From Agromyces albus (GTDB lineage Bacteria; Actinomycetota; Actinomycetes; Actinomycetales; Microbacteriaceae), in the NCBI RefSeq assembly GCF_030815405.1, contig NZ_JAUSWX010000001.1:3038001-3102000 (forward strand): DNA of 64,000 nucleotides, read 5' to 3'. The notes beneath the pieces are model-generated. The model saw nothing but the letters and a program-made list of their open reading frames with translations. It did not search any database and was not told the DNA's origin. Position numbers and translations under genes: made by a program. Of the stretch, positions 41,014 through 58,736 are shown one piece after another. Positions within the stretch are counted from its first letter, which is position 1. Every line of letters begins with the position of its first letter.

Positions 41014-41230
41014 TTGTCCGCAGTCTATGCCGCGGCGGGGAGTTCGTCGCGGATCCGACGGCGGGCACGGGATCGCGCCTCGTTCACCCTCATGGTGAGG
41101 GCCGCCGTCGGACAGGACGGCACCATCGCGGCACACAGCCCGAAGAACTGGCTCGCGACCGACGGCAAGGGCATCGATCACGCGTTCGCCGCTTTCGGCA
41201 ACGCGATCTTCGGCAGCTACGCCGCGACGA
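41014..41230. other. Spacer at the left edge of the defence island with an unexplained short frame
   Basis: This holds the promoter region of the DUF2868 gene. On the plus strand a frame at about 41092-41250 reads GQDGTIAAHSPKNWLATDGK and on to a stop, without an RBS or a family I know. It overlaps the 3' end of the DUF2075 gene. It may be the remnant of a gene cut by island insertion, or chance. Confidence 0.3.
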
Positions 41231-43015
41231 CTACTTGCTGCGAGGGATGAAGTCCCGCAGGTACGCGCGAAGTGCCGGGTCGCAGACGTAGACGTAAGTT
41301 CCACGGATGCCGCGCGTGAGCAGAACGGTGTAGATGTTGCGAACGAATCTCAAGAGGTCGTCGTCGGTGTACGTCTTGCCGAGGACGGGATTGTTCTCCT
41401 TGCCCTTCTTGTCGAAATACGATCCCCGATCGACGACTACCCTGCCCGCTCGCGCGTCGTAGCGAAGGTCAGGACCGATGATGACGCCGGCGTAGTTGAG
41501 GTCGTAACCCTGGATGGTGTGGATCGAACCGACTTCGTCGACGGACTTCGGCGACGCGATCCAATCGGTCTGCGTGCTGTTCCAACGAAGCCGAGAGCCA
41601 TCGACCTCTATGTCATAGGCAGTCTTGTCGTTCTTGGTCTTCCACTCCCAGGCGTATCCGGCAAGCAAGCGCGAGAGGCCGGCCTCGGCATCCCTCTGGC
41701 GAATCTCGTCCCGCATCTCAGCGACGCTGTCGAACATCCGGAAGTCGTAGCCCTCGAAGGCCTCAGGGCGCGCCGGCTCTGGCAGGCCGGTGTTGGGCGC
41801 GGTACCGAGTATGCGTCTGACGTAGGCGACATAGTCGGAACCCGCCTGCACGCGCATCTGTGACGCGAGCGGATAGTGACGGTTCGCAGCTCTCGCCTCG
41901 CGCACAAGTTCGTCGAGGAGCTCCGCGGGCAGGTCAGCCGGTCGAACACTCTGGGCAGCATCCAGGAGGAAGATCTGGTGCTTGCTCTTCGCTCGGATCC
42001 AATCGAGTTGAGTCTTGGTCGTATCGTCACTGCCGAAGAGCTTCTCAGTGATGATGCGGAAGTTCTTGTTCTGGACGCCTGATGGCTGGTTGGCGCGTTG
42101 GTTGAGCCGGTGTGATTCGTCGACGATGAGCAGGTCGAAGTTCTGATCGGCGAACCCGACGTCGAAGGCCGTCATCACCATGTTCGGCCGCAAGCCGGGC
42201 GTCTTCCGGAACACCTTCTTGATCGACTCCCGCAGCGACTGCTGCGGCACGACAAGCCCGATCCGGAGGTCGGCGAGCAGTTCCCCGTAGCCTTCGACGA
42301 AGAACTCGGAGAAGAGGGAGTCGCTATCGAGATCCTCAGCGGGACTCGTGGTTGCAATGTCGACGAGCAGCTTGAGCATGTAGATAGCAACGACGGTCTT
42401 CCCAGTCCCCGGTTCGCCTTGGACGACGATTGTGCTCGTGGCTCCAGACTCCAGATCCTCAAATAGCCCTTCGAGGATGCCTTCGACGGCGACGGCCTGG
42501 TCCTGCGAGAGCGCCTTGAAGGGCGAGAGCTTGAACAGGTCGCTGTTCTCGATCTCGGGGATGCTACGAGTGAAGACGCCATCTCGCCTGAGCTGCTCGA
42601 ACACCTCGCGAAAGGTCTCGCGATACCGATCACGATCGAAGTAGTCCGCCTCGGTGATCCCGTCATTCCTGTTGAGAACACGGTACGAACCGTCTCCGGC
42701 GAGCATTCGGATCAGATACGACTCAAGGTCGAGGCAGACCGACTTGTTGAACGTATCGTCGACGATGACCCGGATGGTGTTCAGGTGCTGCTTTTCCGGT
42801 GAAGCAAAGTGCTGGCGCATTCGGGCAGCTGCGTTCAGGGATTCCCCGACATAGATGTCGTGGAGCCTCTCAATCGTCATGACCCGTGGGGTTGAACGTT
42901 TGGCATCATCCAGCACATAGACGACCGGCCAATTGCTGTTCCGGTGGTCAAGAGGCGCCCACCTGCCGACAGCCTCGGGAGTGAAGTCGAGGCGCGCAAT
43001 CTCAAAGGGCGTCAT
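41231..43015 (-). CDS. GIY-YIG nuclease domain fused to a DUF2075 ATPase/helicase-like protein
   Basis: 594 residues. N-terminal GIY-YIG fold: VVYVLDD near residue 32, IYVGES near 55, the Arg-containing helix AAARMRQHF and catalytic Glu in LDLESYLI. A P-loop ATPase of the DUF2075/COG3410 (Schlafen-like, SF1-helicase-related) group follows: QDQAVAVEGILEG, Walker A GEPGTGKT at about 200, Walker B FDLLIVDESHRL and the late SIHTIQGYDLNYAGV and VLLTRGIRGTYVYV motifs. It probably translocates or senses nucleic acid and cuts it. ATG 43015 overlaps the MazG-like gene. This pair recurs in defence contexts; its mechanism is not established to my knowledge. Confidence 0.85.
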   Translation of the reverse strand: MTPFEIARLDFTPEAVGRWAPLDHRNSNWPVVYVLDDAKRSTPRVMTIERLHDIYVGESLNAAARMRQHFASPEKQHLNTIRVIVDDTFNKSVCLDLESYLIRMLAGDGSYRVLNRNDGITEADYFDRDRYRETFREVFEQLRRDGVFTRSIPEIENSDLFKLSPFKALSQDQAVAVEGILEGLFEDLESGATSTIVVQGEPGTGKTVVAIYMLKLLVDIATTSPAEDLDSDSLFSEFFVEGYGELLADLRIGLVVPQQSLRESIKKVFRKTPGLRPNMVMTAFDVGFADQNFDLLIVDESHRLNQRANQPSGVQNKNFRIITEKLFGSDDTTKTQLDWIRAKSKHQIFLLDAAQSVRPADLPAELLDELVREARAANRHYPLASQMRVQAGSDYVAYVRRILGTAPNTGLPEPARPEAFEGYDFRMFDSVAEMRDEIRQRDAEAGLSRLLAGYAWEWKTKNDKTAYDIEVDGSRLRWNSTQTDWIASPKSVDEVGSIHTIQGYDLNYAGVIIGPDLRYDARAGRVVVDRGSYFDKKGKENNPVLGKTYTDDDLLRFVRNIYTVLLTRGIRGTYVYVCDPALRAYLRDFIPRSK

Positions 43016-43322
43016 ACTTCGCACTTCGCCCGCGAGCCCTATCGACGGGATACTTCTCGCCGGTCACCGCCAGCTTGTCTCGGATGATCTGGTTCGGATC
43101 AGCTCCGATGCGCTCGGCGAGCAATAGGCAATAGGTGAGCACGTCGGCGAGTTCTTCACGTACCTGATCAACCTCGGCGTCGGTGTCCCACTGGAAGCAC
43201 TCGAGCAATTCGCCTGCTTCGATGGCGATGCTCTTGGCGAGGTTCTCGGGCGTATGAAACTGTGCCCAATCTCGCTCGGCGACGAAGGCCGCAATCTCGT
43301 CGCTCACGGAGAGGTCGGCCAT
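43002..43322 (-). CDS. MazG-like nucleotide pyrophosphohydrolase
   Basis: 106 residues. All-alpha NTP-PPase with the metal-binding motif EAGELLECFQW and EELADVLTYCLLLAERIG, as in MazG and dCTP pyrophosphatase relatives. It would hydrolyse (d)NTPs or alarmones to monophosphate. Stop overlaps the start of the GIY-YIG/DUF2075 gene, so the two act together: depletion or cleansing of a nucleotide pool may be the signal or effector. Spaced 182 bp from vsr. Confidence 0.88.
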   Translation of the reverse strand: MADLSVSDEIAAFVAERDWAQFHTPENLAKSIAIEAGELLECFQWDTDAEVDQVREELADVLTYCLLLAERIGADPNQIIRDKLAVTGEKYPVDRARGRSAKYDAL

Positions 43323-43504: not shown

Positions 43505-43969
43505 TTAGCGCTTTCCTGTTCGACGAAGGTTGTCGAGATATGTGCGCCGAATGTCCATGGATAGGACGGCCGGATCCTCGTGCTCCCAATAACGAACTAC
43601 AGTCCAGCCAGCCTCCGCTAGGGCCTGATTGTTCCTCGCATCCCTGGCACGATTGAGTTCGATCTTTGGGTGCCAGTACTCGGGGTTCGTCGCTGGCGGC
43701 CGATAGTGCTCAGGACATCCATGCCAGAAGCATCCATCGATAAACACAGCCACCTTGGCCTTCGTGAAGACGATATCCGCTCGACAACGAAGGCCTCTCT
43801 CCGGTGCGTAGTCGACGCGAAATCGCATCCCAAGAGTGTGCAAGAGCCTTCTCACCCGCAGCTCGGGCGCGGTGTCTCGGCGTCGGTTGCCGAGCATGAT
43901 CCGTCGACGCGCCGGCGAACTCGCCCAACTAAGCCCGCTGGCGCCCGGCGAAGGAAGATCATTCATCAC
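43505..43969 (-). CDS. vsr: Very short patch repair (Vsr) mismatch endonuclease
   Basis: 154 residues. RRDTAPELRVRRLLHTLGMRFRVDY, catalytic Asp in RADIVFTKAKVAVFIDGCFWHGCP (with zinc Cys/His), then KIELNRARDARNNQALAEAGW and VVRYWEHE. Vsr nicks beside T in T:G mismatches that arise from deamination of 5-methylcytosine. It belongs with the cytosine methyltransferase at the head of this operon and indicates that the island's m5C mark is maintained. 46 bp after the HerA gene. Confidence 0.95.
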   Translation of the reverse strand: MMNDLPSPGASGLSWASSPARRRIMLGNRRRDTAPELRVRRLLHTLGMRFRVDYAPERGLRCRADIVFTKAKVAVFIDGCFWHGCPEHYRPPATNPEYWHPKIELNRARDARNNQALAEAGWTVVRYWEHEDPAVLSMDIRRTYLDNLRRTGKR

Positions 43970-44015
43970 CGCTTATCCCAGCCTGCGGCCTATTTCGAGC
44001 CGCCTAAGGATAAGG

Positions 44016-47000
44016 CTAGCCGACGACCTCGACGTCCGACGGGTCAGGTCCGTCATCAGCTACCGGAGGGACGAGTTGGTAGAACGGCGTCCCATGGATG
44101 AACGTTCCGTTGTAGCCGAACGAGGAGTAGAGCGCGTCATGAACTGGCAGCATCGCGATTCGGTCGTCAACTCCAGGAACAGCACCCTTTACTCCAAGCT
44201 GATTCAGCTCCTTTATCGACACTGACGGCACCTTGTGGATGAACCAGGTGAGAAGAGGTTGACCATAGTTCACGCTGCTCGTCCTGAAGTGGGAGAGGAA
44301 CTGGGAAGCCAGAATGATTCCAAAGCCGAACTCGCGCCCTTGCAACATCAACTGCATGAGCACGGGGAACTCGTACGCCATGATGTTTGTTGCCTCATCC
44401 ACGAGGAGGAACGAGTTAAGTCGCCGCAATTGCGGGTCCCCGTCAGTGAACTTCCACTTCGTCGATCGCAGCATGTAGTCGTAGTACATGTTGAGGAAGA
44501 ACGCGACGAGTGCGTTCTTCCCGCGTTGATCTACGCCCAGATCGCTCAGGGCGAGCACGAGCACAGTATCTTCGATCAGTACTTCGAACGGAAGCAGCTG
44601 CTCCTTATCCGAAGAGAAGATGTCCGCCAAGACGAAGTCTTGGAGGATGGCGCTGACTGCGTCAGGCTTGCCGGACAAATTGAGGTAGCCCTCCAAGACC
44701 TCCGGAAGCGTCGGGGCAACGTGATCTACACCTGAGTACCCATCGAATATCGCCTTCTTGAGATTCGATGCTTGAACTGGTCCCACGCCGCCATAGATCT
44801 TGGTCACGACGTCTGCGAACATTGCCGCACGCTGCAGCGCAGAGTGGGGAGTGAACCCTTCGCGTAGAGCGAAGATATTCAACGGGATCCGATATGGGCG
44901 CAGTACTACGCCACCGACCGCGTCCAAGAACTGCTCGTCCTGGTAGTCCCGCTTGTAGTCGAATATCAGAAACGACAGCGGATTCTCCTGACTTCGCTTT
45001 GCCCCCTGCCTGAGCTGGAAGACGAGAGACTTCAGCAGTTGGGTCTTCCCTGTGCCAAGGTCACCAACTACTCCAATATTCATCTGGTTGAGTTGGGTGT
45101 TGCTCGGCCAGAATTCAGCTGAGGCTGTGCCGATCGAGTCCACGAGGCGCCCTACCGGGAATCGGATACCTTCGAGATCCGCCGCTGGGGGCGTGGGAAG
45201 CGACACCGGGCCCGGCTCAGGCCGAAGCTCCGGTGCGGGACCCGGCTTCGCCTCCTGCGCAGGACCCGGCCTCACTTCCGGCGCCCGTAGGCGATCAGGC
45301 GCAGGGATTGGTTCCGGAATCGGAGCCGTGTGGATCGTGGGCTCTGAACGCACAACCGGTTGGGGTTCCGGGGCAAGCACCCGCCCTGGTTCTGGCACAG
45401 GTGCAGGGGCGGTCGCTTCGGACGCCCAATCAAGTAGCCCCTGCCACTCGCCGGCGAGCGCACTGTCGTCTTGGTCAAGCTGGAGGAGCGTCGTTGCCGA
45501 GTCGGCTACAAGTGCGCCAAACTCCGCGAGTGGTGCATCGTCGGCTAGGTGCTCGCGACGAAATGCCTCGTACCGGCGGCCGTCAGGGAAGGCCGCCCCA
45601 TGGTTGAAGTAGAGAACCAGCGGCTTGCCAACTCGGAAGCGCGAGCGCCCCATGATCACGGACGAGAGACGCTTCGGCCATGTGGCCGGGTTCACGCCTT
45701 TGTTGGAAAGCTTTGCCGCCGCCTCGACGAGTGAACCAAGTCCGTTCGACCAGAGCGCTTGCTCTTCTTCCGACCCATTTGAAGGCATCTCGCGTGCCTT
45801 GCGTTCGATCGCCTTCAGCAGCGCGGTCGTCGACGCAAGCTGCGCCAGAGGCTCGCCAAACGCTGCGCTTTCGGGGGTCGGCAAGCTTGCATTGCGTGCC
45901 TCCGTTCCCAGACCGTAGAACTTGATCTCGACGGGAGTGAAAGTCAAGTCTTCATCCGTGACGTCGATGATGAGGAGATCTGCGCGCTGCCGATCGCCAG
46001 CGTAGGCCCCTTCTGGTGCCAGAATCCGAAGGAACGCATCGGAGGCATCGATCGGGAGAACAAGCCGGTCTTTGCCGCTGGCCGGTGCCGCATCAACCAA
46101 GGCAAAGGCCAGGTAGAAGCCGAGGGCGCCTGATGCGTGAGTCCCACCCATCGCCAGAAGTGACGAAAGGCCCACTCCTCTCGATCCCAGTCGGGTGAGG
46201 AGGTCAGCTACCTGAGCCAGCGTTGCATCCTCACCCCGCGCTAGTGAGAGCATGCCTCGAAGTTGTTGTTGGAAGCTCTGAGGCACACGAGCGACAGACA
46301 CGTATGGCTTCCGCTCGATGGTGGAGCTGCCGAGGTTCCGCTCGAAGATTGGAGGACGCCACTCCCAGAGCATTCGCGCACCATCATCGTGCTGGAGGAG
46401 CGCGGAGATTGCGGCAGGTGTGAGCATCGATTCGCCGGAGACTGTCCAGTCCGCGCGATCATCCACGAGCAACGATCCGATCAATCTCGACGTAATTGAC
46501 GGTGAACCTTCGACCAGCCGCAAAGCTGTCGTAAGCGGTTCCCATCCAATTCCTGCTTCCAGACCCGGATTGGAAATGGTCGCACCGCCGTACCCGATCA
46601 GTCCCATGGATGCGTCAAACCTGCGAAGAGGGATGGCCCCCATCGTCCCGTTCTGCACCGAAGTAGTCGCAGTGACCTTGACCTGAACCCCAGCATCCTG
46701 CAAGATCCGGACGTTGCATCGCTCGGTCTTGCCGGGTATGGGTAGATATCGCGCCCAGGAAAGGGGCATGCCCGGATGGGCGCGCACTAAGGCGGTCAGA
46801 TCGTCGCGCGGGCCAGAGCCCGTGCGGTGAGCGGAGTCAAGCACACGTGCGCCGCCGGGTAGCCGCCCTCCGCTTTGCTTCGACCATGCATCGAGTACCG
46901 CGATAACTGCCTGATCAACCTCCGCGACGCGGGGAGCCGGGGAATCGGACCCGAGATCGAGGGTCAAGGTGGAAACGTGTGGATTCATGCGCCGATATGT

Positions 47001-49559
47001 CCGCAATGCCGCATCGACGGCCGCGCCATTCAGTCCACTCGCAGCAGTGCCCGGGGCGGGGTAGCCACCGATCCGGGCGGGCGCCTTAAGTGCCGACGGG
47101 CCCTCTGTCGATGCAGCAAGCAGAACCGCCCAACCGGCGAAGACCTGATCGGTTCCACCATCGGCCTGCACCGCAAGCATTCCACCTGACACGTACGGGT
47201 TCGGCCCCACCAACGGGTATCCGTGGCCCTGCACAGTTCCTGCAAGTTGGCGCGCATCGTCGGACTCCCAGAAGGTCGCCTCGACGGCTGCAAGCCATGC
47301 GAGTCGTAAGGGATGTAGTGGGCTCAGGAGTACAGACTCGCACCGGACATTCCCTGGCTCCAACGACCAAACGCTGGTCGAGAATGGGTACGTGGCCCAG
47401 AAGACGCCGGTCGGGTCATCGAGCTGCTTCGCGCGCTCAATGAGGCCGGAATACGCCGTGAGATAACCAACGAGCTTGTCCCGATTCTCACCCCACAGCC
47501 GGCGTCGAGGGTAACGGGATGGCCAGCGGGCAGCTTGCAAGAGTTCCTCGTCAGCCGCGAACCCGAACGGATCTAGCGCATCGAACGCGCTCATGAGTGC
47601 CTCCGCCTCCTCGCTTTCGAGGAGTTCTTTAGGCACGGAGAACGCTACGAGTGCTTTCCAGGCGGAAGACATGCCGTCTGGCACAAGCACGCCTGCTTCG
47701 ATGGACACACTGTCGATGGAACTTGGGTCAGTCGAGGACAAAACGACATGCCCGTGACAGCGACGCCAATCTGGATCTGACGCGAGGTTCAGGCTGGCGG
47801 ATTCGTACTTTCCGCGCACCGAGTCCGTATCGGCATTATCGAGCGGATCGCTGGACGGCTGTTCCTTCTCGATCGCCGCGAGCAGCGGAGAAGCATGTGG
47901 CCTGCTTGGCGTCGCAGCATGGAGCTCGAGCTCCTCGCCATCAATTTGCACGAGTGTGACGGGCTGAGGAGTGAAATCGGCGATGAAGAGCCACGGCCGT
48001 CCTTCGCAAGGCGCGACCGTGCGACCTTCCAGGACGACCTTGGACCCTTCGGATGCCCAGGCAATCAGACGGTGCTGAGCGGAGTAAGCGCCAAGCTCGG
48101 CGATCCACGGGCCATCGCCGTCGCCAACAACAAGGTTCGCCGCGACGCGACCGGGACGCTTTTTGGAATCGAGCTGCACCGCGAGTAGCCCTCGAGTCTC
48201 CGATGGAACGACGTACATGACTGCGTCGGTCGTCGGCGGAACCAGTCCTTCCAGGACATCTCCATGTGGGATCACGAGGCGGGCCCGTACGACAGTGATT
48301 TTGCCAGCGAGCTTCGACGGCAACACGAATCGCCCCCGGACTCTCAGCTGGTCACTGTCCCCACCCTGAGCAATTGCGCCGTCCCAGTGGGCACCCTTTG
48401 TTGAAACCGCAATCGATATCCCAGAAGCGGCCGCTGCACTCCCTGCAGGCGCGGCTGTAGGGATGCGAATTCTCAGCTCCTCCGTCTGATAGACGCCGCC
48501 GTTGTCGCTTGCCGCAACGATGAAAGGAGGTGACTCGCCGTTGTCCGTGCTGAGGGCCTGGCCATCGACAGTCTCGATGACCAAAGGATGCGCATCTTTT
48601 GCTGGAATGCCGGCGGGTGCAAGGAACTGCCGTTCAGAGAGCTGCGCGAGAGCCGTTATTGATGCCACGCTCGTCGCGACAGTGCGAAACCATGCCGAAA
48701 CCGCGTCGTCCAACGCCGCAACTCGTTCGTCCAGACCGACCCACTCGATCTCATTGACCGGGTGGGGAGCGCCCGCTTCGGCCTCCAAGTAGGCGAGCGA
48801 GCGGTCCACCTTCTCTTCACTGTCCCACCAATCCCGAAGTGCTTCGAGCACTCGGTCACCCGAGCCCCCAGCTATGTCGCGACCGTTCGCCGGAGTGGGC
48901 AAACCGAACGACGGGAAAGCGAACTGGGAAAGCACTAACGAGAGATCGCTTGAGGGAAGCTCCAGGAGGTGCCACCGTAGAACATCCGCAAGGTTCGACA
49001 ATCCTGCATCGACGTGTCGGAACCAACGTGCGTTCCAGCGCTGCGCACCGGCATCTCCTACCGCCGCATGAAGGGCGCGTAGTTGACGAAGCACCGCCGC
49101 CAAGATCGTGGCGCCCTCATCGAGGACGCTGGCAATCGGGTCTCGAGCGCCGGATTCTTGGATGACGGCTCGAAGCGCAGAATCCGCCACCTTCTCGAGG
49201 AGACTGCTTCCACCGCTCAAGTCCTCGTCAGGGAATGATTGAGCCAGTCCTTCGCTGAACGCTGTCGTGATGGAGGCTAGCTCGGGATGACGCCCGACCA
49301 CAATCGCGAGGCGATCATCAATTCTGTATTTCACGAGATCCTGCGACGTAACAACGACCACGTTGCCCGGCGCACCCGGAGAGGCCTCCGGCGCAACGAC
49401 TACCGCGAATGGTGGTGAGCTCGGCCGAATATCGTTTGCCGCTCTAGCGATGTAGCGCGCCTCATCAAGAGCAACTCCCTCCGGCAGGTACGCTGCGGTA
49501 AGGCCATCTCGATCGGACAAGACATCCGCTAGGGCCATTGCGAGTAGATTCTGCTCCAC
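44016..49559 (-). CDS. Giant HerA/FtsK-like ATPase, DptH-like, with candidate nuclease motif
   Basis: 1847 residues, GTG 49559 with AAAGG upstream. Residues 1-1180 are a large region without recognised domain. Around 1190-1215, LLIIDVTDEDLTFTPVEIKFYG has the spacing of a PD-(D/E)xK nuclease (Asp ... Glu-x-Lys). A Pro-rich linker (about 1380-1455) follows, then a HerA-type ATPase: GVVGDLGTGKTQLLKSLV near 1500, LSFLIFDYKRDY, Walker B FLLVDEATNIM near 1720 and the sensor GIILASQFLSHF. Size and layout match DptH/DndH of phosphorothioate restriction, where DptF, G and H form the cutting complex. Here it follows two genes in the same order. Mechanism is inferred. Confidence 0.82.
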   Translation of the reverse strand: MEQNLLAMALADVLSDRDGLTAAYLPEGVALDEARYIARAANDIRPSSPPFAVVVAPEASPGAPGNVVVVTSQDLVKYRIDDRLAIVVGRHPELASITTAFSEGLAQSFPDEDLSGGSSLLEKVADSALRAVIQESGARDPIASVLDEGATILAAVLRQLRALHAAVGDAGAQRWNARWFRHVDAGLSNLADVLRWHLLELPSSDLSLVLSQFAFPSFGLPTPANGRDIAGGSGDRVLEALRDWWDSEEKVDRSLAYLEAEAGAPHPVNEIEWVGLDERVAALDDAVSAWFRTVATSVASITALAQLSERQFLAPAGIPAKDAHPLVIETVDGQALSTDNGESPPFIVAASDNGGVYQTEELRIRIPTAAPAGSAAAASGISIAVSTKGAHWDGAIAQGGDSDQLRVRGRFVLPSKLAGKITVVRARLVIPHGDVLEGLVPPTTDAVMYVVPSETRGLLAVQLDSKKRPGRVAANLVVGDGDGPWIAELGAYSAQHRLIAWASEGSKVVLEGRTVAPCEGRPWLFIADFTPQPVTLVQIDGEELELHAATPSRPHASPLLAAIEKEQPSSDPLDNADTDSVRGKYESASLNLASDPDWRRCHGHVVLSSTDPSSIDSVSIEAGVLVPDGMSSAWKALVAFSVPKELLESEEAEALMSAFDALDPFGFAADEELLQAARWPSRYPRRRLWGENRDKLVGYLTAYSGLIERAKQLDDPTGVFWATYPFSTSVWSLEPGNVRCESVLLSPLHPLRLAWLAAVEATFWESDDARQLAGTVQGHGYPLVGPNPYVSGGMLAVQADGGTDQVFAGWAVLLAASTEGPSALKAPARIGGYPAPGTAASGLNGAAVDAALRTYRRMNPHVSTLTLDLGSDSPAPRVAEVDQAVIAVLDAWSKQSGGRLPGGARVLDSAHRTGSGPRDDLTALVRAHPGMPLSWARYLPIPGKTERCNVRILQDAGVQVKVTATTSVQNGTMGAIPLRRFDASMGLIGYGGATISNPGLEAGIGWEPLTTALRLVEGSPSITSRLIGSLLVDDRADWTVSGESMLTPAAISALLQHDDGARMLWEWRPPIFERNLGSSTIERKPYVSVARVPQSFQQQLRGMLSLARGEDATLAQVADLLTRLGSRGVGLSSLLAMGGTHASGALGFYLAFALVDAAPASGKDRLVLPIDASDAFLRILAPEGAYAGDRQRADLLIIDVTDEDLTFTPVEIKFYGLGTEARNASLPTPESAAFGEPLAQLASTTALLKAIERKAREMPSNGSEEEQALWSNGLGSLVEAAAKLSNKGVNPATWPKRLSSVIMGRSRFRVGKPLVLYFNHGAAFPDGRRYEAFRREHLADDAPLAEFGALVADSATTLLQLDQDDSALAGEWQGLLDWASEATAPAPVPEPGRVLAPEPQPVVRSEPTIHTAPIPEPIPAPDRLRAPEVRPGPAQEAKPGPAPELRPEPGPVSLPTPPAADLEGIRFPVGRLVDSIGTASAEFWPSNTQLNQMNIGVVGDLGTGKTQLLKSLVFQLRQGAKRSQENPLSFLIFDYKRDYQDEQFLDAVGGVVLRPYRIPLNIFALREGFTPHSALQRAAMFADVVTKIYGGVGPVQASNLKKAIFDGYSGVDHVAPTLPEVLEGYLNLSGKPDAVSAILQDFVLADIFSSDKEQLLPFEVLIEDTVLVLALSDLGVDQRGKNALVAFFLNMYYDYMLRSTKWKFTDGDPQLRRLNSFLLVDEATNIMAYEFPVLMQLMLQGREFGFGIILASQFLSHFRTSSVNYGQPLLTWFIHKVPSVSIKELNQLGVKGAVPGVDDRIAMLPVHDALYSSFGYNGTFIHGTPFYQLVPPVADDGPDPSDVEVVG

Positions 49560-49570
49560 GACGGGCCTTT

Positions 49571-51010
49571 CTAGTACGCAGCCTGAATGAGCACGGCTTG
49601 GTCAGCATCGGCGCTTCCGCGAGCAAGGCCGGCCCGCTCGAGCAGTTCGACGAGGTCAGAGAGTTCGGGGCGGACACCCATGGCGCTGAGCGTCCACAGC
49701 ATCTCCGCGACAGTTGCCATGCCGCCAGGCGAGCCACAAGTGAGGCTTGCCACGACTGCGACCCATTCAGTTCCTGGGTCTGGGACGAGGAATCGACCCC
49801 GACTGCGAAGCAGGCCGAAGTAGTCCGGCTGGCTGCCGTCCGTCGCACGCGTCATGAGCGCGTATCGCGATGCCTCCCAGAGGTTCTTGCCGGAAGACGG
49901 TCGCTCGTCCGTGCGTAGGACCGCCTTGAGCACTCGGCGTGTCTCGCCGTCGCCCTGAAGGCCGGACATCGTCAGATCAAACGATTCTCCGTCGAGACCG
50001 AGTGCAGTGATCCTCTCGCGGAGAGCCTGCCGAATTCGATCTGCGCGAAAGGACCGCTTCATCAGCAATGGAGCGACGTCCCGGTCCTTTACGCCGAGGC
50101 GAGAGGATCGCCACGGCACGACGTCGTCCATGTTCTCGATTACGCCCTGCGGAGTAATGGGCGAACCCTCCAGGAGGATGCGACGTGCGACCGACTCGTA
50201 CCAAGCAGACTCCCAGAGGTAGCCCAAGCCGTACGCGAGCCTCAGCACGGTCGTGGCCCAGTCTGCCCATGTTCGTGCTGGTAGTGCATCGACCCATTCA
50301 TCGCTGGTGAGAGTCTGCCACGCGCGTCGGAACCAACCGAATGGCGTCAATGCCCCGGGGCGCGACATGTCATCGGACGCGCCCAAATCAGTGCGCACGG
50401 GCAGGGGAGCTGGGCTTCGATCCCCCAAGGCCTTCCGAAGCAGCACACTCGACGTGGCCGCATCAATCGCGAAGAGCAGTGGGTCGATATCCATCCGCCG
50501 TTGGGTCGCAGCAATCCAGTCACCCGTCGCAGACCGGATCGACTCCGGCCCATCGACGTTGTCTTCCCGTCCCATCGCGTACATCTGCTCGATGATCTCA
50601 GCGATCCCAGGGGGATTCCGAACTCCCATGAGGCCTCTCGTGTTCTGGAGAAGCGCGAGCGCTGGCGTCAGCGGACTCACGGCTCGGGAGGACCCCTTGG
50701 AAGCGGCGAGGCCATCAACGCTCTCCGCAACCGCCTGACCGATGAGCTCCGACGATGCCTCTCCCTCGATCCCGTTATGAAGGATGGCCTCACCGAACCT
50801 TCCCACAAGCTCACCGGTAGGTGCAGTCTGACGGTATTCGAGGACCTTCGTCCCCGCATCATCGGTTCTGTACCTCAAGCCCACGGGTTTCTCGCTGTTC
50901 GTGGCGATGTCCAACGGAAATGCTCGCCACGCAAGATCGCTGATGAAAGCTTCAGGGAGCGCAACGTATTGCGGGCGACGGAGCCCGAGGACCACGAAGT
51001 GAGAGGTCAT
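49571..51010 (-). CDS. Conserved defence-operon protein, DptG-position, unknown fold
   Basis: 479 residues, no recognised motif. Mostly helical, Trp-rich centre (ALPARTWADWATTVLRLAYGLGYLWESAWYESV) and no P-loop or catalytic signature. It lies between the P-loop protein (1 bp gap) and the HerA ATPase (11 bp gap), so the three are made together. This is the position and size class of DptG in dptFGH operons, which also has no enzymatic motif. I cannot show sequence relation by eye. ATG 51010 with AGGAG upstream. Confidence 0.7.
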   Translation of the reverse strand: MTSHFVVLGLRRPQYVALPEAFISDLAWRAFPLDIATNSEKPVGLRYRTDDAGTKVLEYRQTAPTGELVGRFGEAILHNGIEGEASSELIGQAVAESVDGLAASKGSSRAVSPLTPALALLQNTRGLMGVRNPPGIAEIIEQMYAMGREDNVDGPESIRSATGDWIAATQRRMDIDPLLFAIDAATSSVLLRKALGDRSPAPLPVRTDLGASDDMSRPGALTPFGWFRRAWQTLTSDEWVDALPARTWADWATTVLRLAYGLGYLWESAWYESVARRILLEGSPITPQGVIENMDDVVPWRSSRLGVKDRDVAPLLMKRSFRADRIRQALRERITALGLDGESFDLTMSGLQGDGETRRVLKAVLRTDERPSSGKNLWEASRYALMTRATDGSQPDYFGLLRSRGRFLVPDPGTEWVAVVASLTCGSPGGMATVAEMLWTLSAMGVRPELSDLVELLERAGLARGSADADQAVLIQAAY

Positions 51011-51011
51011 A

Positions 51012-53483
51012 TCAAGCTCCTGCCTGGATCTTGTACTCGGCCGAACCCGCGACCACAACGAAGTTCTCGCGGAACGGCCCGCGCTCGCCGACGAGTTGAG
51101 TGGATCGGAATCTTTCGAGCCTTGGTGACGTGGCATCCGCTACCTCTGTCACGCCGATCCAACCACCTGTGCAGCTCTGCGCTTGCCTTACGAGTGCGAA
51201 GTCCAGCCGTATGCGAGGGGAACTCGTGGCCCCTTCGACCACGCAGAAGTAGAGCTCTTCTCCCTCCCTACTTGATCTCAAGTCGAAGGGTCCACTGGCG
51301 AGCGCCAGCTTGGCGCCCACGACGTCACCGATGATCGGCTCCGCCCGACTACCGAGGAGGGGAATGAGCGGGTTGCTTCCCTGACCGTCGCGGGGCGGCC
51401 TTACGAGAGTCTTGAGTTGGTTCTCAAGAAGCGTCGGAAGCTCGGAAGCCGTAGCAAGCTCAGAAGCCATCGTCCATGCGAGCGTCCACATGGCGATCTC
51501 CCGCCTGAAGGCCGAGATCCCGTGAGCAACCGCATATAGGCGCGTTATGTAGCGCCCATACCAAGCGACCAATCCTTCCCGCACTGGATCCGAGAGGCGC
51601 GGAACGCTGACGGCCTCGACGAATGCTTGGTCCAGCCGGCGGTCGAAGTCAGTTACGACTCCGACGAATGAATCATTGTCATCGAGGAGTCGAACGAGTG
51701 AATCCAAGGGCGAGCCACTCGTCAGCGGCCCCGAGAATGCGTCAACAATCGGCGTCGCCCAACCCGCGTTGGGCTCTTCGACGGAGAACTCTCCCGGCAC
51801 GGTGTCGATGACGGGATCCACGGCACTTGTACGGCGTGTGACCGGATTGTTCCGAGGGTCACTGGGTTTCTCGGGAAGGTCCATCCCAACGCCGAAGAGG
51901 GCCTGCGAGAAGCGGTATTGCGCCAGTCTTCGAATCTCCTCGAACCGCTTCACGGGTTCCGCTGACGCCGGTTGGAGGTCATCTATAAGACTTCGGGCGC
52001 TGACGGGACTGTACTCGCTTGTTGCTGCTCCAACGATGCAGCGCGAAAGTGCTCCCCAGAGATCCCGGAACGTATAGGTAGATCCCGACACGATCTCGGA
52101 GGCACGAAGCAGCGTCAAGACGCCGGACTGAGTCGGGCGCGACGCCATCGACTGAATATTGGCATCGAATGGGTCGAAATAGCCCTCAGGCACAACATCG
52201 CTCGACGCATCCATGAGCGCAGCGACAACGACCTCGAAGAGCTGGCCCCCCGATGTTCCGTCGGCATGCAGGCGATCCCTTTTGATGGTCTTCGCGATGC
52301 GGTAACTATCGGGCACAAGCGTTTGCACGCCGCCCGGACCTGATTCCACCGACACCCTTGGCGTTGCTTCAAGGAGCGAGCACGAGTCCACGTTGACCAC
52401 CACGATGTCAGCGATGACGTCGTCTTGAAAGTGAACGGTGGCGGTGCGAAGGTATGAGGTCTCCTGACCAGATATCACGACGGGGCCATCCACCTCGTCG
52501 ATGTCTTCTAGAGCCTCTGCATAGGACTCGCTCGATTGCAACCAACGCACGACATCGGAGCCGACCGTCGCGTTCGATGACGAAAGTGCTGCTGCTTCCT
52601 CGACGAGAACGCCACGATTGATGCATGCCATCAGAAGCGAACCTGATTCGATGATGCTGGCGATCTCACGAGAGAGGGGAGCCCGACGGTAACGGTCGCT
52701 CGTGATCGTCGCATCGTTGATCAGGAGGAATTCGCGCTCCCCCCACGAATAGCGATATGCCCGCTGGGCTAGTCCGTCGTCCTGAGCGTCAACCCGTGGG
52801 AGATCCATGACGGCTTCGGCCGCAGCATGGGACTTGCCCGCCCCAGGACCTCCAACCAAGAAGAGAAGTCGCGCTGTACCGAGTGCTCGCGGGGTAGAGC
52901 GCAACCAATCAATGCCCTCGGCCACACCAGCCGGGCGACGAGCGGCCGGAAACGCGTCGTTGGCGTTGGCGGGCGTGGCCGCGACGTCTCGCCCGCCTGT
53001 CGATCGCTCCCACAGGCGTGCGAGCAGGCCCCAGCGTCCCGCGCCATCAGTGTCAGCATCGCCCGCAACACCATCATCCAAATCGATCATGACTCCCCTT
53101 GAGATGTTGAAGATGCGGAGTTCACCAGCGACGTTCACGAGCCCGACCTTCTCGCCAGGCGCACAGTAATCCTTGAGTCCGGGGAACCAGATACGCGGGT
53201 CACCTTTCCCACTCCTCGGGCGAACGACGCTCGCATGAGTCGGGGACGCCGTTTTGTCCTTGCGGATGAATACCGCTGGCAGTTGTCGCTTGAACTCAGT
53301 TCCCTGCTTCTGGCCCGAGTAGTCGTGTAGGCCCTGACGCGCCAAGAAGGCGCGAACTGGTTTGGTGGCATCAAGAGTTGACTTACGCAGTCCCGTTGAA
53401 GTGGGTTCGAGGATGGCGTAGTCAATCCCATGGGCCTCGAGTGAATCGACGATGCCCTGCTCAGTTTCGGTCAGTGGTGACAT
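51012..53483 (-). CDS. P-loop NTPase with N-terminal candidate recognition domain, DptF-position
   Basis: 823 residues. The N-terminal about 120 residues contain GLRKSTLDATKPVRAFL, LHDYSGQKQG and VVRPRSGKGDPRIWFPGL, a pattern I associate weakly with EcoRII-N/B3-like DNA-sensing domains of restriction proteins. A P-loop FLVGGPGAGKSH is near residue 209, followed by FLLINDATIT. The rest is helical. In dptFGH operons the first gene, DptF, is also a P-loop ATPase but shorter (about 500-550). Here the extra N-terminus could read the unmethylated site. Starts 17 bp after the methyltransferase stop. Confidence 0.72.
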   Translation of the reverse strand: MSPLTETEQGIVDSLEAHGIDYAILEPTSTGLRKSTLDATKPVRAFLARQGLHDYSGQKQGTEFKRQLPAVFIRKDKTASPTHASVVRPRSGKGDPRIWFPGLKDYCAPGEKVGLVNVAGELRIFNISRGVMIDLDDGVAGDADTDGAGRWGLLARLWERSTGGRDVAATPANANDAFPAARRPAGVAEGIDWLRSTPRALGTARLLFLVGGPGAGKSHAAAEAVMDLPRVDAQDDGLAQRAYRYSWGEREFLLINDATITSDRYRRAPLSREIASIIESGSLLMACINRGVLVEEAAALSSSNATVGSDVVRWLQSSESYAEALEDIDEVDGPVVISGQETSYLRTATVHFQDDVIADIVVVNVDSCSLLEATPRVSVESGPGGVQTLVPDSYRIAKTIKRDRLHADGTSGGQLFEVVVAALMDASSDVVPEGYFDPFDANIQSMASRPTQSGVLTLLRASEIVSGSTYTFRDLWGALSRCIVGAATSEYSPVSARSLIDDLQPASAEPVKRFEEIRRLAQYRFSQALFGVGMDLPEKPSDPRNNPVTRRTSAVDPVIDTVPGEFSVEEPNAGWATPIVDAFSGPLTSGSPLDSLVRLLDDNDSFVGVVTDFDRRLDQAFVEAVSVPRLSDPVREGLVAWYGRYITRLYAVAHGISAFRREIAMWTLAWTMASELATASELPTLLENQLKTLVRPPRDGQGSNPLIPLLGSRAEPIIGDVVGAKLALASGPFDLRSSREGEELYFCVVEGATSSPRIRLDFALVRQAQSCTGGWIGVTEVADATSPRLERFRSTQLVGERGPFRENFVVVAGSAEYKIQAGA

Positions 53484-53500
53484 GCGCGTCGCCCATTCCC

Positions 53501-55072
53501 CTACTCGCTTGACTCTGGCTCGCTGCCCCCGCGTGAGTCGTCGACCAGCCTATCGATCAGCCTGCCGATGGCCAGCCCCAAGAATGGCGACACTGCATTA
53601 CCCACCTGTGAGTATTGAGGCACTTCGAACCGGCGGCGATGCGCCCCAGTTGTCTCCCTACCCATGAACACAAAGTCATCAGGGAACCCTTGAAACCGGG
53701 CGAGTTCACGAACCGTCAGGATTCGAGGTTCACTTGGGTGGACATAGTCGTCTGGCAGGGTGACGACGGTCTTCGCGGGTTCATCCCAGCGGAGGGCCTT
53801 CTGAGAGTGCTTTCGGGTAGCAAACGACCGGATCACCGATTGCATCTCTTCCGCGTCCGCTGCCAGGACGGTGCCGTCGGGTGCAACGGCGGGATAGGCC
53901 GCTCCTCGCAACTGCGTTACCGCTGCGGCGCTCGCTTCACTGGTCCCGTAGTTGAGAGTGCCAACGACCCGGTGCGAGATCCCCTCCCGCGAGAGCCATT
54001 GGTATAGGCGAAACCGACCGATGACTTGCGTTGTGTGCTTCCGAGGAACATGGTTTGCGATCCCGTCGGATCTGGTCGATCCGCTAGCGGGAACAAGAAG
54101 CTCAGCGAGGGCGTCCCGATAGGACGAGTTCCCTCCAAGTTGTTCCTGCTGGAGGAGCAAATCACCGACTGCATCGCCGACGGTGCGCTCATCTTCACTC
54201 CGGAGGGTGGGCATCGGCGAGAGAGCAATCGGCTCCACTTCGTCGATGTAACCCGACACCCATGCGCGCTCAGACGCGCTGACCCCCAATGCCTCTGCTA
54301 GGTCCTTCCGAACACCCAGAATCATCAGGCGAGGCCTGTGCTGCGGTGCACCGAAGTGCTTGGCATTAACCGAAAGCCCTTGGACGACGTACCCCGGCTC
54401 AGTGTCCCGCAGCGCCATCTGGACTTGCTGGAACGTTGATACAGCGGAGCCTGCGAACGACCGCGACATTCCAACGACATTCTCGATCACCACGACCCTC
54501 GGTCTGGTTCTCTCGACGAACTCGAGGAATTCCCACGGGAGCTTGTTGCGCATGTCTGATGGGTTTCGGCGGCCGGCTAGAGAGAAGCCCTGGCACGGCG
54601 GCCCCCCCACGACGACGTCGATCTCGAGATCTGACAGCTCGAACCCTCGCCCGTCGAGGACATTCCGTAGCTCGCTCACCACTAGCCCAGAGCGAACCTG
54701 CTTTGCCAAGGATTGCTCGAGGTAACGACACCAGTCGTCAGCATCGACATCCGCGTCGATAAAGTTCCGGTAGTAGGTCTGCGCCGCCATGTCTGACTTC
54801 TCGACGGCGAGGACCGATTTCCCGCCAGCGTTCTCGAGCCCGAGCGAAAGCCCGCCGCACCCCGCGAACAAGTCGACATACCGAAACAACTGCACTCCAC
54901 TCATTTGGGCGGATCTCTCGCGCCAATTGCATGAGTCGGCGGCCCAGCTCATTATGACGCCACCGCCGGACACTGGACCGTCGTCGGGGAGCGAGTCGTG
55001 CGGCATGGCTAGCAAACGCGCGTGGTCTAGCCCGCGGCGATCGAGTACCTCCCGCACCAGTTCGGGCACCAA
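53501..55072 (-). CDS. DNA (cytosine-5-)-methyltransferase
   Basis: 523 residues if read from 55072. Motif I DLFAGCGGLSLGLE, motif IV GGPPCQGFSLAG with catalytic Cys, motif VI VIENV, motif VIII QHRPRL, target recognition in the 300-400 region and motif X QVGNAVSPFLG. It transfers methyl from SAM to C5 of cytosine in a specific site. First gene of the operon with the three DptFGH-like genes and vsr, and so the self-marking enzyme. The N-terminal 56 residues before MSGVQLFRYVDLF match nothing known; an alternative start is ATG 54904. Confidence 0.93.
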   Translation of the reverse strand: MVPELVREVLDRRGLDHARLLAMPHDSLPDDGPVSGGGVIMSWAADSCNWRERSAQMSGVQLFRYVDLFAGCGGLSLGLENAGGKSVLAVEKSDMAAQTYYRNFIDADVDADDWCRYLEQSLAKQVRSGLVVSELRNVLDGRGFELSDLEIDVVVGGPPCQGFSLAGRRNPSDMRNKLPWEFLEFVERTRPRVVVIENVVGMSRSFAGSAVSTFQQVQMALRDTEPGYVVQGLSVNAKHFGAPQHRPRLMILGVRKDLAEALGVSASERAWVSGYIDEVEPIALSPMPTLRSEDERTVGDAVGDLLLQQEQLGGNSSYRDALAELLVPASGSTRSDGIANHVPRKHTTQVIGRFRLYQWLSREGISHRVVGTLNYGTSEASAAAVTQLRGAAYPAVAPDGTVLAADAEEMQSVIRSFATRKHSQKALRWDEPAKTVVTLPDDYVHPSEPRILTVRELARFQGFPDDFVFMGRETTGAHRRRFEVPQYSQVGNAVSPFLGLAIGRLIDRLVDDSRGGSEPESSE

Positions 55073-55112
55073 TATCCGTCTCTCAGCGAGGTCGTGACCT
55101 TACTGTTAGCCC

Positions 55113-55343
55113 ATGGCACGCATTCGTTCCCTCTCCCAGACCACCGGCGCATCAAAGGCACATCCAACCGAGGTTGACGCGGAATGGAGCGTTGTCGAAC
55201 TTGTTCCTGGCCGCCTCCTTCAGATTTCCACTTACGGCTCGGACGAGCGAAAAGAATCCGGCGTCTCTCAGACGCTGCAGTTCGATGAGCAACAGGCGCG
55301 CGCGCTCGTCCGTGCGATCGAGCAAGTGTTTCCGTCGACATAA
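55113..55343 (+). CDS. Small conserved protein divergent to the methyltransferase
   Basis: 76 residues ending in GRLLQISTYGSDERKESGVS and FDEQQARALVRAIEQVF. Similar short proteins occur in actinobacteria and are sometimes misnamed methionyl-tRNA formyltransferase-like; they appear near restriction genes. No RBS precedes ATG 55113, so a leaderless message is likely. Only 40 bp separate it from the earliest methyltransferase start. A regulatory or inhibitory role is possible but not shown. Confidence 0.65.
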   Translation: MARIRSLSQTTGASKAHPTEVDAEWSVVELVPGRLLQISTYGSDERKESGVSQTLQFDEQQARALVRAIEQVFPST

Positions 55344-55525
55344 ACACGACAGTCAGTGCAGGTGAGGCGCAAGTTGCCCTCGCAAGCATGCGCTGGCCGA
55401 CTGATTCAGGCCGTAGCCGGCACGCGAGGCAGCCGCTTGCCGACCCACCGCCGGTGTCCCTGCGCCAGAGCCGGACGAGACTAGAGCGCCCTAGCCTTGG
55501 GCGCCGTGCGCACGGCAACGCGTTT

Positions 55526-58500
55526 CTATGGATCAAGCACATGCAATGTTGCCGGGCTCGTGTCCGCGTGGGAAGTGCTCGGCATCGACGATTGAATTCG
55601 CTGAACTTCGTAGAGTGGGACTAATCGCAGGGCTGAGAGTGGAACCCTAGTGGCGAGCCAGGTCGATACCGCCGCCTGCTGTATGTTCTGCAACTGAGTT
55701 GCGTCGACCCCGAACACCGCAACCTGCTGTTTCTTACGCCCCGCCGCTGAAGTTGCTACTCGGATATCTTCCGTTAAGTGAACGAACTGCCTACCGCCAG
55801 GACGCAACCCGTCCTTTGCTTCGACGATTGAAGCAAGGTTGGACATCGGTGTCGCATGGTAAAGCTCACGCGAAGGCAATCCCGTCGCGTACCCCATTCT
55901 CGTGCGTCGAGAGTGACCATAGCGAGCACGGATTTCTGAGCCATTCAATTCAAATCGCGGCTCACCGAGGGCACCTGCAATAAGCACAACGTCATCCGCA
56001 CTCACTCGATGGCCTTCTGCCACCAACGCGGCGCGCAGAGCGTCGACGTGCATCCACCCCTCCCGGTCGACTTCGGCGAGTGCGTTGTGGCGCAGATGGA
56101 ACGACATTGCCCTGCTGATGCGGCGGCGCGTTCCCAGCGACCTTCGCTCGAAAGCGCTACTAGGAACTGCCCCAATCTTCTTCGACCATTCGACGGATAC
56201 CGAGGCTGACGCGCGACCGAGCGCAGTTCCGCGCCAACGTTCAGCAATTAGCCCGACCATCTCCCCCGCTCGCTTCTTGTCGGGTGCGGATGCGCGTTCG
56301 GCGCTAAACGTCCGAACTGCTCGCGCGAGCCTACCCGCGTCGAGTAGGGACTTCAGGTCATGATTCTCGGGAACACTCTGCGGTGCATAGTTGTAAAGGG
56401 CGGCGACGTAACGATCCCAGACTTGATATGCGGCGGCGTCGTCCGCATCGAACACCGGCTCATCTTCCAACAGCTGAGCCAGCTCGTAACCCAAAGGCCT
56501 CCACCCGATGGACTCAAGATCGACCGCAAGAATTCTGCTCTTGTCATCAACGATCCAGTTAAGCGCATGCGCATCCCGTCTGGGAAGCATCGGGGCGTCT
56601 TGGACACAACTCCACCACTGCTCGAACACGTTGCGTCGACTTCCGTCACTGGGAAAGAGATACCTAAGCCAGCGCCCAAACTCTCTTTCCCACAGATCGC
56701 GTCGCACCCCAGCTGGAACATCATCACTTCTCAAGCGCGCGTGGATTAGCCCGAGGAACTCCGCGGTGTCTCCCACCACTGCGACCCGCGAACCAGCCTC
56801 GCTAATCCGAAGTGTTGTGGCGAGGGTTCGGCCGCTCATGAAACGTCGAACGGAGACGCATTTTGCTTCCGACTCCGGCCCTGTAGGCTCGAGCGCCATA
56901 TCAAGGCTGGCAAGGTGCTCAATAACGCCGAACCGATCGCCTAGACCAGCTTCGCTGACTATGGAGCGGACTTGATCGGAACTCTTGCTATCTCGTTCGT
57001 GCGCCACGTGTGAGGTCTCCTTGAAGACGAATGTCTCACCAGTCAGCCCGGCGTAGTCGCGAGCGATCACACACCCGCCACGCCCGCCAAGCGATTCTCG
57101 TTGCGTGTCGTGGCTCAAGAGGGCTCGACGTGCAGCCATCTCGAATAGAACCCGCGCGTCGCCGCTTCTCACCGCGATCGCAATTGCTTCATCGCAATTC
57201 AACAACGGCCCCAATAGCGCACCGTTTGATTCGATTTCGACCGCTAAGACCGTAATCGCTGTTGGATCAAGCTTGTTACGCCCTACGAGTTCACAAAGAC
57301 CACGGAGACCCTCGCGCCGGAGGCGCGAATCGGCTGTTGCCACCGCCAAGAGGAGCTGATCTTGCGCTTGGTCGAGAGCCGAAGTGTCACGCGGCAGCGC
57401 GGCTTGATAGGCCTCACCGGCACGAAACTTGATTGCACGTTTGAGGTAGTAGACGCGGTCGTCCGACTGCGAGACGTGACGAGCGAGATACGCGCACAGC
57501 TCCGCCGCAATGTCTCGAAAGAAGAAGTGACCAGCGTCGGCGTGACTCTCTAAGCGGTCCAATATCTCGTCACCAGCGTCAACGAACGCCTGCGGCATGA
57601 TTACGGTGCGCGACCTTAGTCCGAAGGGAAAGCGAACCCCTTGTAGACCGGTTTGATCGAGCGAATTGTTCTCCACGACCGAATAAAGGAATGCCCCGAG
57701 CATCAACATGCGCGCTTGGTCGACGATAGTCGACTCATCGGCGTGTATTTCAGCTCTATGCAGATAGGACTGAGCCTGTGTCAAGAACCCGTCGCGCGCA
57801 CCTGGGCTTGCGACACCCGCTAGCTTCATCCAAATCTCGCTGCAAGCGAGGTTCCATCCGACGTCCCTCTCAGCCGCGCGTTCGACCTGATCTTGTGTGA
57901 ACCGCGCGCCTATCCGTAGAGCCTCCAAGTCGCCGGTGTAGTCATAGATTTGCGTATACCCCTCGACAAGGTATGTCGAGGCGGATTCATGCTCCCGAGC
58001 GTGAGCTCGACGTAGAGCGTCGCATGCCCGATTTAGCTTGGCCGCATCAACGATTGAGAAACGGGCCGCTGAGACTGTGGCAATTCCAAGTCGAGCTTCA
58101 ATCGCGAAATCAGCCTCGACATCGGAGACGCCAACGCCAAGAAGCGAATCCAAGTAGGTTCGAGCGAGCTCGAGCGTACGGACGAATACGACCGGCCTAG
58201 CCCAGCCTTTGTTCAGCGCTCGGTGAAACGCAGCGTTGGCCAACCGTCGGCGTTGCCTCACGAGCGCGGCCTCAGCCGATGTGCCATGCAGTCGGAGGTA
58301 CGGCCCAATCACGGAAATTCTTGTGCATAGGACTGCTTCTTCGATCAGACACTGGAACAGGGTCGGATATCCAGAGCTGGTCTGGGACTCACGCAGTCGT
58401 AGAGCCAGCTGGCCACCAGATGTATGGGGGCTAAGCCAGTCGCTGACTGCCGCCTCTCCGGCGGTACCGATCCAATCGCCAAATTCTTTTGTGGTGTCCA

Positions 58501-58645: not shown

Positions 58646-58736
58646 GTGAACCGAATAGAACCACACCTACGAGTGATCGCACCACCCCGCTTTCGGGATT
58701 CGCGCAGTCGTCAAGATGCGTCGGCGTTAGGAGAAC

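Follow-up and report, generated by a model that had tools for sequence, protein, structure and literature searches.

The DndFGH (DptFGH) restriction effectors occur with DndBCDE or standalone; they are often found apart from the phosphorothioate (PT) genes, and how they discriminate self from foreign DNA is puzzling (PMC10853773; this and the other papers are cited from passages). In PT systems the marks are said to hold FGH back and losing the writer to do harm (PMC10853773, PMC12707154), deletion of the marking genes with dptFGH retained leading to SOS induction (PMC12707154). In SspABCD-SspFGH the writer module paired with FGH is not of the Dnd kind, but its mark is still a phosphorothioate (PMC12707154), and in the CxC ABC-ATPase/DndE systems a cytosine methylase replaces the PT writers in a Dnd-related locus, together with DndE, a CxC ABC ATPase and an HKD nuclease-helicase (PMC10853773). 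Here we describe a five-gene operon in a 64,000-nucleotide stretch of the Agromyces albus genome (assembly GCF_030815405.1, contig NZ_JAUSWX010000001.1, positions 3,038,001 to 3,102,000; the whole stretch is referred to as the window), in which a DndFGH-type trio (F, G and H) is encoded with a C5-cytosine DNA methyltransferase (M) and a very-short-patch mismatch endonuclease (Vsr). M and FGH stay coupled in related loci, and the locus probably encodes a restriction-modification system whose effector is of DndFGH type and whose self-mark is 5-methylcytosine (m5C) rather than phosphorothioate.

The window shares with DndFGH systems the F-G-H gene order, a predicted DndG fold, and a DptH-type HerA domain preceded by a nuclease domain, and its F aligns with DptF, including the Walker A motif and an Asn at Walker B. 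It differs in that the partner of FGH is a C5 methyltransferase, mostly with Vsr, rather than DndBCDE, and in that G and most of H lie beyond sequence recognition. A cytosine methylase is common to the window and the CxC systems, but in the window it accompanies FGH, in an operon lacking DndE and the ABC ATPase; an FGH effector with a non-Dnd writer is common to the window and SspABCD-SspFGH, although the mark of the window system is most likely base methylation. As a class, BREX, DISARM and MADS likewise combine a methyltransferase with ATPase machinery. The earlier note, made from the sequence of this stretch, had seen no dndABCDE-like, BREX (pglZ, brxL) or DISARM (drmA/B) genes, and a PADLOC scan of 20 chosen window proteins (the operon and its neighbours; for M, the best 25 of 63 families) agrees, with no PglZ, BrxL, DrmA, DrmB or DndB-E listed; the rest of the genome was not searched for the BREX and DISARM proteins. 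Matches to Drm models are confined to M, which hits the methyltransferase family DrmMII (among those best 25 of 63). The parts of the system are known, but no named system with the same gene set, and no DndFGH effector that brings along an m5C writer and a Vsr, is described within the literature searched (mostly open-access papers, no supplements, including passages of PMC10853773 and PMC12839542), as the earlier note had also supposed.

All five genes lie on the minus strand and form one operon spanning 54904 down to 43505 (Table 1), with gaps of 17 bp (M/F), 1 bp (F/G), 11 bp (G/H) and 46 bp (H/Vsr), as had been proposed from the sequence. The identity of M and its end at 53501 also stand, but its start does not: the 523-aa frame begins at a TTG within an upstream open frame, and the ATG at 54904, giving 467 aa, is the likely start because relatives begin near the motif-I strand. 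A 521-aa frame at G is an upstream extension of the 479-aa gene.

Table 1. Coordinates of the operon genes and of the domains recognised in their products (positions in the window).
Feature	Position	Strand	Remarks
M: C5-cytosine DNA methyltransferase	53501..54904	-	likely ATG start 54904, 467 aa; open frame from TTG 55072
F: DndF/DptF-like subunit, 823 aa	51012..53483	-	P-loop kinase-like core (predicted); hhalign to DptF
F N-terminal domain, ~residues 1-140	53064..53483	-	homologous to non-catalytic N-terminal part of MvaI/BcnI-family restriction enzymes
G: DndG/DptG-like subunit, 479 aa	49571..51010	-	predicted structure matches DndG
H: DndH/DptH-like subunit, 1847 aa	44016..49559	-	PADLOC DndH; PDB DptH 7es4
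H PD-(D/E)XK nuclease domain, ~residues 1090-1360	45480..46292	-	D1194, E1211, K1213 conserved
H HerA/FtsK ATPase domain, residues 1484-1830	44070..45110	-	PADLOC DndH, 7es4, profile-profile to DptH
Vsr: very-short-patch mismatch endonuclease	43505..43969	-	PF03852 E 2.3e-19; TIGR00632; 1cw0

The resemblance of the trio to DptFGH had been proposed from gene sizes, gene order and the C-terminus of H, and the comparison with DptF, DptG and DptH, on which that proposal could have fallen, came out positive for a relation. Neither F nor G, nor H outside its last 360 residues, matches a Pfam, NCBIfam or PADLOC family above cut-off. Compared with DptF by hhalign, F scores 81% (88% with a wider alignment), and five decoys score at most 3%. 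Its motifs are a Walker A (GGPGAGKS), NDATI, and an Asn at Walker B (CINRG), present in 109/109, 109/109 and 106/109 F proteins, respectively, the window's included; these motifs and the above-decoy match identify F as a putative P-loop kinase-like protein of DptF type. The F set comprises 109 of 111 proteins (110 found plus that of the window), P0115 (1179 aa, not an F) and P0006 (a 96% copy of the window F) having been left out; a protein of Agromyces sp. Root1464 shares 96% identity with the window F.

For G, the predicted structure matches DndG and its triple winged-helix fold, such that G as modelled is structurally a DndG. Structure was needed here because comparison with DptG by sequence profiles alone gave nothing usable (0.5% and 1.5%); the G alignment holds 75 of 120 listed relatives (220 found) plus the window's. 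At the C-terminus of H, residues 1484-1828 match PADLOC DndH (E 5.3e-56), the solved DptH structure 7es4 is matched with E 1.7e-40, and the HerA domain matches DptH in a profile-profile comparison with E 5e-39; PF10412 is barely over its cut-off, and there is a weak PADLOC match to MADS mad8 (E 5.8e-12). DndFGH-type H proteins carry two beta-sandwiches and an inactive methyltransferase-like domain ahead of the nuclease. In the window, the part of H before the HerA domain scores 21% against DptH by hhalign, and a model of residues 221-1402 finds no Foldseek match below 1e-3, its list being filled by beta-sandwich and Ig-like chains. In the H alignment (63 of 120 listed relatives, with 124 found, plus the window's; 64 rows), the nuclease columns of E1211 and K1213 are invariant and that of D1194 is at least 90% conserved, and an ExK pattern is present in 124 of 132 H rows, some of which are duplicates.

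Other arrangements of H-like genes were also encountered. In Pseudoalteromonas (L011, 7743-13116) H is shorter (1623 aa) and follows a separate frame of 164 aa, giving the appearance of a split H. Two Vibrio plasmids (L018 and L024) carry a HerA domain of DndH type within proteins of some 1000 aa; their genes adjoin conjugation genes, and neither dptF nor dptG is annotated in the vicinity.

M matches PF00145 (E 1.4e-52), is over the cut-off of TIGR00675 and carries the catalytic motifs PCQ, ENV, QxRxR and QVGNAV, and Vsr is over the TIGR00632 cut-off (E 4.2e-39) and aligns to the Escherichia coli Vsr structure 1cw0 (E 2.5e-15); both had been named as such in the earlier note. The operon holds a C5 methyltransferase with a linked Vsr, as a Dcm-Vsr pair does, although in the window, L009, L010 and L020 the FGH genes stand between the two. 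M is the sole PF00145 match, and hence the sole C5 methyltransferase found, in the 4.27-Mb genome. Palindromes and some 5-mers were counted in 400 kb of the genome (L032-L051) in search of the M target, and these word counts single out no motif: observed/expected ratios are 0.81 for GGSCC, 0.86 for GGWCC, 0.93 for CCWGG and 1.03 for CCSGG. CTAG is strongly rare (0.27), but CTAG scarcity is widespread in bacteria and nothing is concluded from it.

Loci related to that of the window were found with H or G as query, never with M, and in 15 of 15 loci of the clade, the window included, an M gene accompanies the FGH trio; a neighbourhood search of this kind had been proposed in the earlier note. 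Vsr is present in 12 of the 15 and was not detected in L002, L011 and L055. These 15 loci represent about seven independent lineages, L003-L008 with L057 being close kin, as are L009, L010 and L020. The H search of genome contigs yielded seven loci, of which every one has M and six have Vsr; that of plasmids gave 16 records, five of which, at 43% identity or more, correspond to four distinct loci (one Sinorhizobium plasmid is present twice), each with M adjoining the trio; and genome searches with G added L055, L057 and L058, where M again flanks the trio. F, G and H are contiguous and in the same order in the window, L002-L011, L020, L055, L057 and L058. Around them the gene order varies (M-F-G-H-Vsr, F-G-H-M-Vsr or F-G-H-M) with M kept in all: the Sinorhizobium, Rhizobium and Shinella plasmids have the order of the window, Pseudoalteromonas has F-G-H-M, and L058 has M-F-G-H with a convergent Vsr. 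M adjoins the trio except in L002, where it is encoded on the other strand, at a distance of 1.4 kb past H.

M itself is diverse. The rhizobial and Pseudoalteromonas enzymes are 34-35% identical to that of the window, and those of L055 and L058 about 30%, that of L055 being only 307 aa with a short target region; F, G and H are still recognisable in L055 and L058 despite the divergent M. Because the same M-FGH set recurs in other genera and classes, and M is the only C5 methyltransferase of the genome, the linkage is more than chance; by rough inference, a lone C5 gene would come to lie no more than 5 kb from an 11-kb trio by chance with odds of about 0.5%.

Ten of the other 11 plasmid records were examined. 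F-G-H is accompanied by DndC and DndD in L015, L017 and L019, and has neither DndC nor DndD match nearby in L016 and L021; L022 has DndC and DndD but not the trio as defined here, and in the available part of the records L018, L024, L025 and L026 there is no M match. The five DptFGH loci (L015, L016, L017, L019 and L021) serve as comparators, few as they are (four or five): none has M, and three have DndC (tblastn, E 1e-5, about 19 kb each; DptFGH annotated, or assigned by size and order in the unannotated L017). A tree of the HerA domain places nine trios with M on one side of a branch and three without M on the other (support 100/100). It has 12 rows, leaving out L004, L006, L008, L019, L022 and L021 (Walker motif missed by the pattern); in L019 dptG is split and H was not used. 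As the tool warned of long branches, we read this tree only as agreement with the M linkage.

A feature not seen in the earlier note is that F begins with an exchangeable, reader-like domain. Residues 1-140 match the region ahead of the catalytic domain in MvaI/BcnI-family enzymes: in tblastn, seven plasmid records annotated as MvaI/BcnI family were found (best E 2e-19, 42% identity), and in two of these enzymes the Pfam catalytic domain starts after the shared part, at residue 165 of 393 and 249 of 478. MvaI/BcnI type II systems also resemble the window in having a C5 methyltransferase beside the enzyme, at three plasmid loci (L012-L014), but no MvaI/BcnI catalytic domain was found by Pfam in the five operon proteins, where the nuclease is H with its motor domain. 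Among the 109 F proteins, 21 have the MvaI/BcnI-type domain of the window (class a), 37 a class b domain, three a class c domain, one another domain and 47 none, the last including 11 short rows classed with a wider Walker pattern. Class b matches 1190 plasmid records, and of the 12 matches listed 10 fall in a DUF3883 protein. Class c is PF18062, the LpnPI/AspBHI N-terminal domain, and occurs in P0108, P0110 and P0111; that of P0108 matches LpnPI 4rzl (E 6.8e-46) and AspBHI 4oc8 (E 1.4e-40), enzymes that cut at modified cytosine.

These domain labels cluster on a quick tree of the F core, with at least 18 changes compared with a shuffled mean of 50, a change count that fragments or wrong gene starts would inflate. 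The domains reported at the start of F are HEPN, NERD, kinase, GNAT, wHTH and Zn-ribbon (PMC10853773, section 20), a list that lacks the MvaI/BcnI and LpnPI/AspBHI types; the words MvaI, AspBHI and Vsr are absent from the main text of that paper. Class b could be the wHTH of the list. The N-terminal domain of F may read DNA or its marks. A one-to-one pairing of F N-terminal class with the methyltransferase target domain was considered and is not borne out: class a occurs with two very different methyltransferases (window and L055), and loci with both are few. In L055 the resemblance of the domain to class a is weak (best E 1e-8), and the MvaI/BcnI enzymes themselves are matched only with E 0.2. 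Four F proteins of 914-962 aa (P0064, P0088, P0089 and P0091) have an extra stretch ahead of the class b domain, and P0115 is a further host of the MvaI/BcnI-type domain, which is all it shares with F (44% identity over 14% of F).

A working model can be carried over from the PT and Dcm-Vsr systems: self would be marked by M, DNA without the mark would be attacked by FGH, and deaminated sites would be mended by Vsr. The earlier note had put forward this reading, and the comparisons above support it. M would methylate a short motif in the host chromosome, and F, G and H would, by analogy, form one complex. In this complex G would bind DNA through its winged-helix array, F would bind nucleotide and read DNA sequence or modification with its N-terminal domain, and H would translocate DNA with its HerA motor and nick or cut it with the PD-(D/E)XK domain. 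The complex would be held inactive at m5C sites, which thereby protect the host, and would fire on unmarked incoming DNA. Vsr would serve M by starting the repair of T:G mismatches that arise from deaminated m5C, so that marked sites are kept; in E. coli, Vsr is co-transcribed with Dcm and repairs deaminated sites (PMC12907096). The SOS induction seen when a PT writer is lost and dptFGH kept predicts an obligate mark-writer, as is seen here.

Other relationships between M and FGH can be envisaged. FGH has been argued to act without a built-in modification module (PMC10853773), and the kinase-like motifs of F are conserved, as would suit a standalone invader sensor in which F senses nucleotides, HerA intercepts DNA, and M only shields the host, against side cuts by FGH or against other nucleases, without defining self. 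A merely helpful M should sometimes be absent, however, and its presence at 15 of 15 loci, across changes of gene order and twice as a very different C5 enzyme, makes this unlikely. It is more doubtful still that M and Vsr are an orphan Dcm-Vsr cassette that travels with FGH but is functionally separate: solitary C5 methyltransferases are prevalent (PMC12907096), and in the seven loci of the Arthrobacter group M and Vsr do sit side by side on one flank of the trio, as expected of a cassette, but in the window, in three rhizobial plasmids and in L058 they stand at opposite ends around FGH, and in L002, L011 and L055 M is present without a detected Vsr.

The logic could also be reversed, as in type IV systems, with modified cytosine in foreign DNA recruiting or activating FGH and M acting as decoy, regulator or immunity factor. 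The PF18062 domain of three F relatives would fit such a role, yet a methyltransferase of the same operon would make the host's own DNA a target unless the two motifs were different, and the three proteins are encoded on short contigs (3-5 kb), so a partner M is uncertain for them; we consider this very improbable. Least credible, to the point of being nearly negligible, is a PT system with its writers encoded at another site of the genome. A cysteine-desulfurase-like gene is present at 60433-62157 (minus strand; 574 aa, class-V aminotransferase, PF00266 E 4.8e-33), but its matches to SufS (E 5e-28) and DndA (TIGR03235, E 8.5e-8) are far below cut-off, and PADLOC gives SspA 6e-7 and DndA 4e-6. 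The DndC model TIGR03183 has no match in the one-contig, 99.94% complete genome, and this search does reach distant relatives, since it found matches, none over cut-off, in five of 14 control genomes. Neither DndC nor DndD is matched near the 11 other trio loci screened (a set without L055, L057 and L058).

On the preferred reading, of m5C as self-mark, the FGH cutting machine can probably run with a different self-mark. A clade with its own base-methylation writer at each of 15 loci offers a direct and genetically simple test of DndFGH self-recognition, and the system would be a motor-nuclease restriction complex with an ordinary m5C mark that can be read by bisulfite or nanopore sequencing. 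The varied N-terminal domains of F hint that the reader is exchangeable. More tentatively, DndFGH may be a mark-agnostic engine for which a partner writer (PT or various C5 enzymes) and a swappable F reader domain together set self, the possible readers being the MvaI/BcnI-type domain, the DUF3883-associated domain and the modified-cytosine reader of LpnPI/AspBHI; evolution would then reprogram the system by trading writer and reader around a constant F-G-H core.

G is found in three of 150 genomes of the family (the A. albus genome, that of L055 and a stop-containing stretch of G101) and in three of 396 genomes of the order (A. albus and those of L057 and L058), counts in which distant copies may be missed as few first-look candidates were scored per genome; ten other genomes of the genus in the order list have no G match. 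The G101 candidate (L031/L056) was rejected as a locus, as the G-like sequence there covers just 80 residues, contains a stop (E 5e-5) and is not accompanied by any F, G, H or M match at 1e-4 within 20 kb. Among viral contigs scanned with the G alignment there were 117 pattern matches and no relative. This spread, together with the plasmid copies, fits a mobile defence system.

The neighbourhood of the operon looks like a defence island. At 37943-43322 (minus strand) is a defence-like row of genes encoding a DUF3482 GTPase with weak LeoA/LeoBC similarity, a DUF2868 protein, a Schlafen-group-3 helicase and a MazG-like protein. Just upstream of M, at 55526-58666 (minus strand), is a 1046-aa gene product with a C-terminal RNA 2'-phosphotransferase domain (KptA/Tpt1, E 8.8e-17) preceded by a stretch that appears kinase-like by eye, and beside it, at 55027-55542, is a gene for a 171-aa protein.
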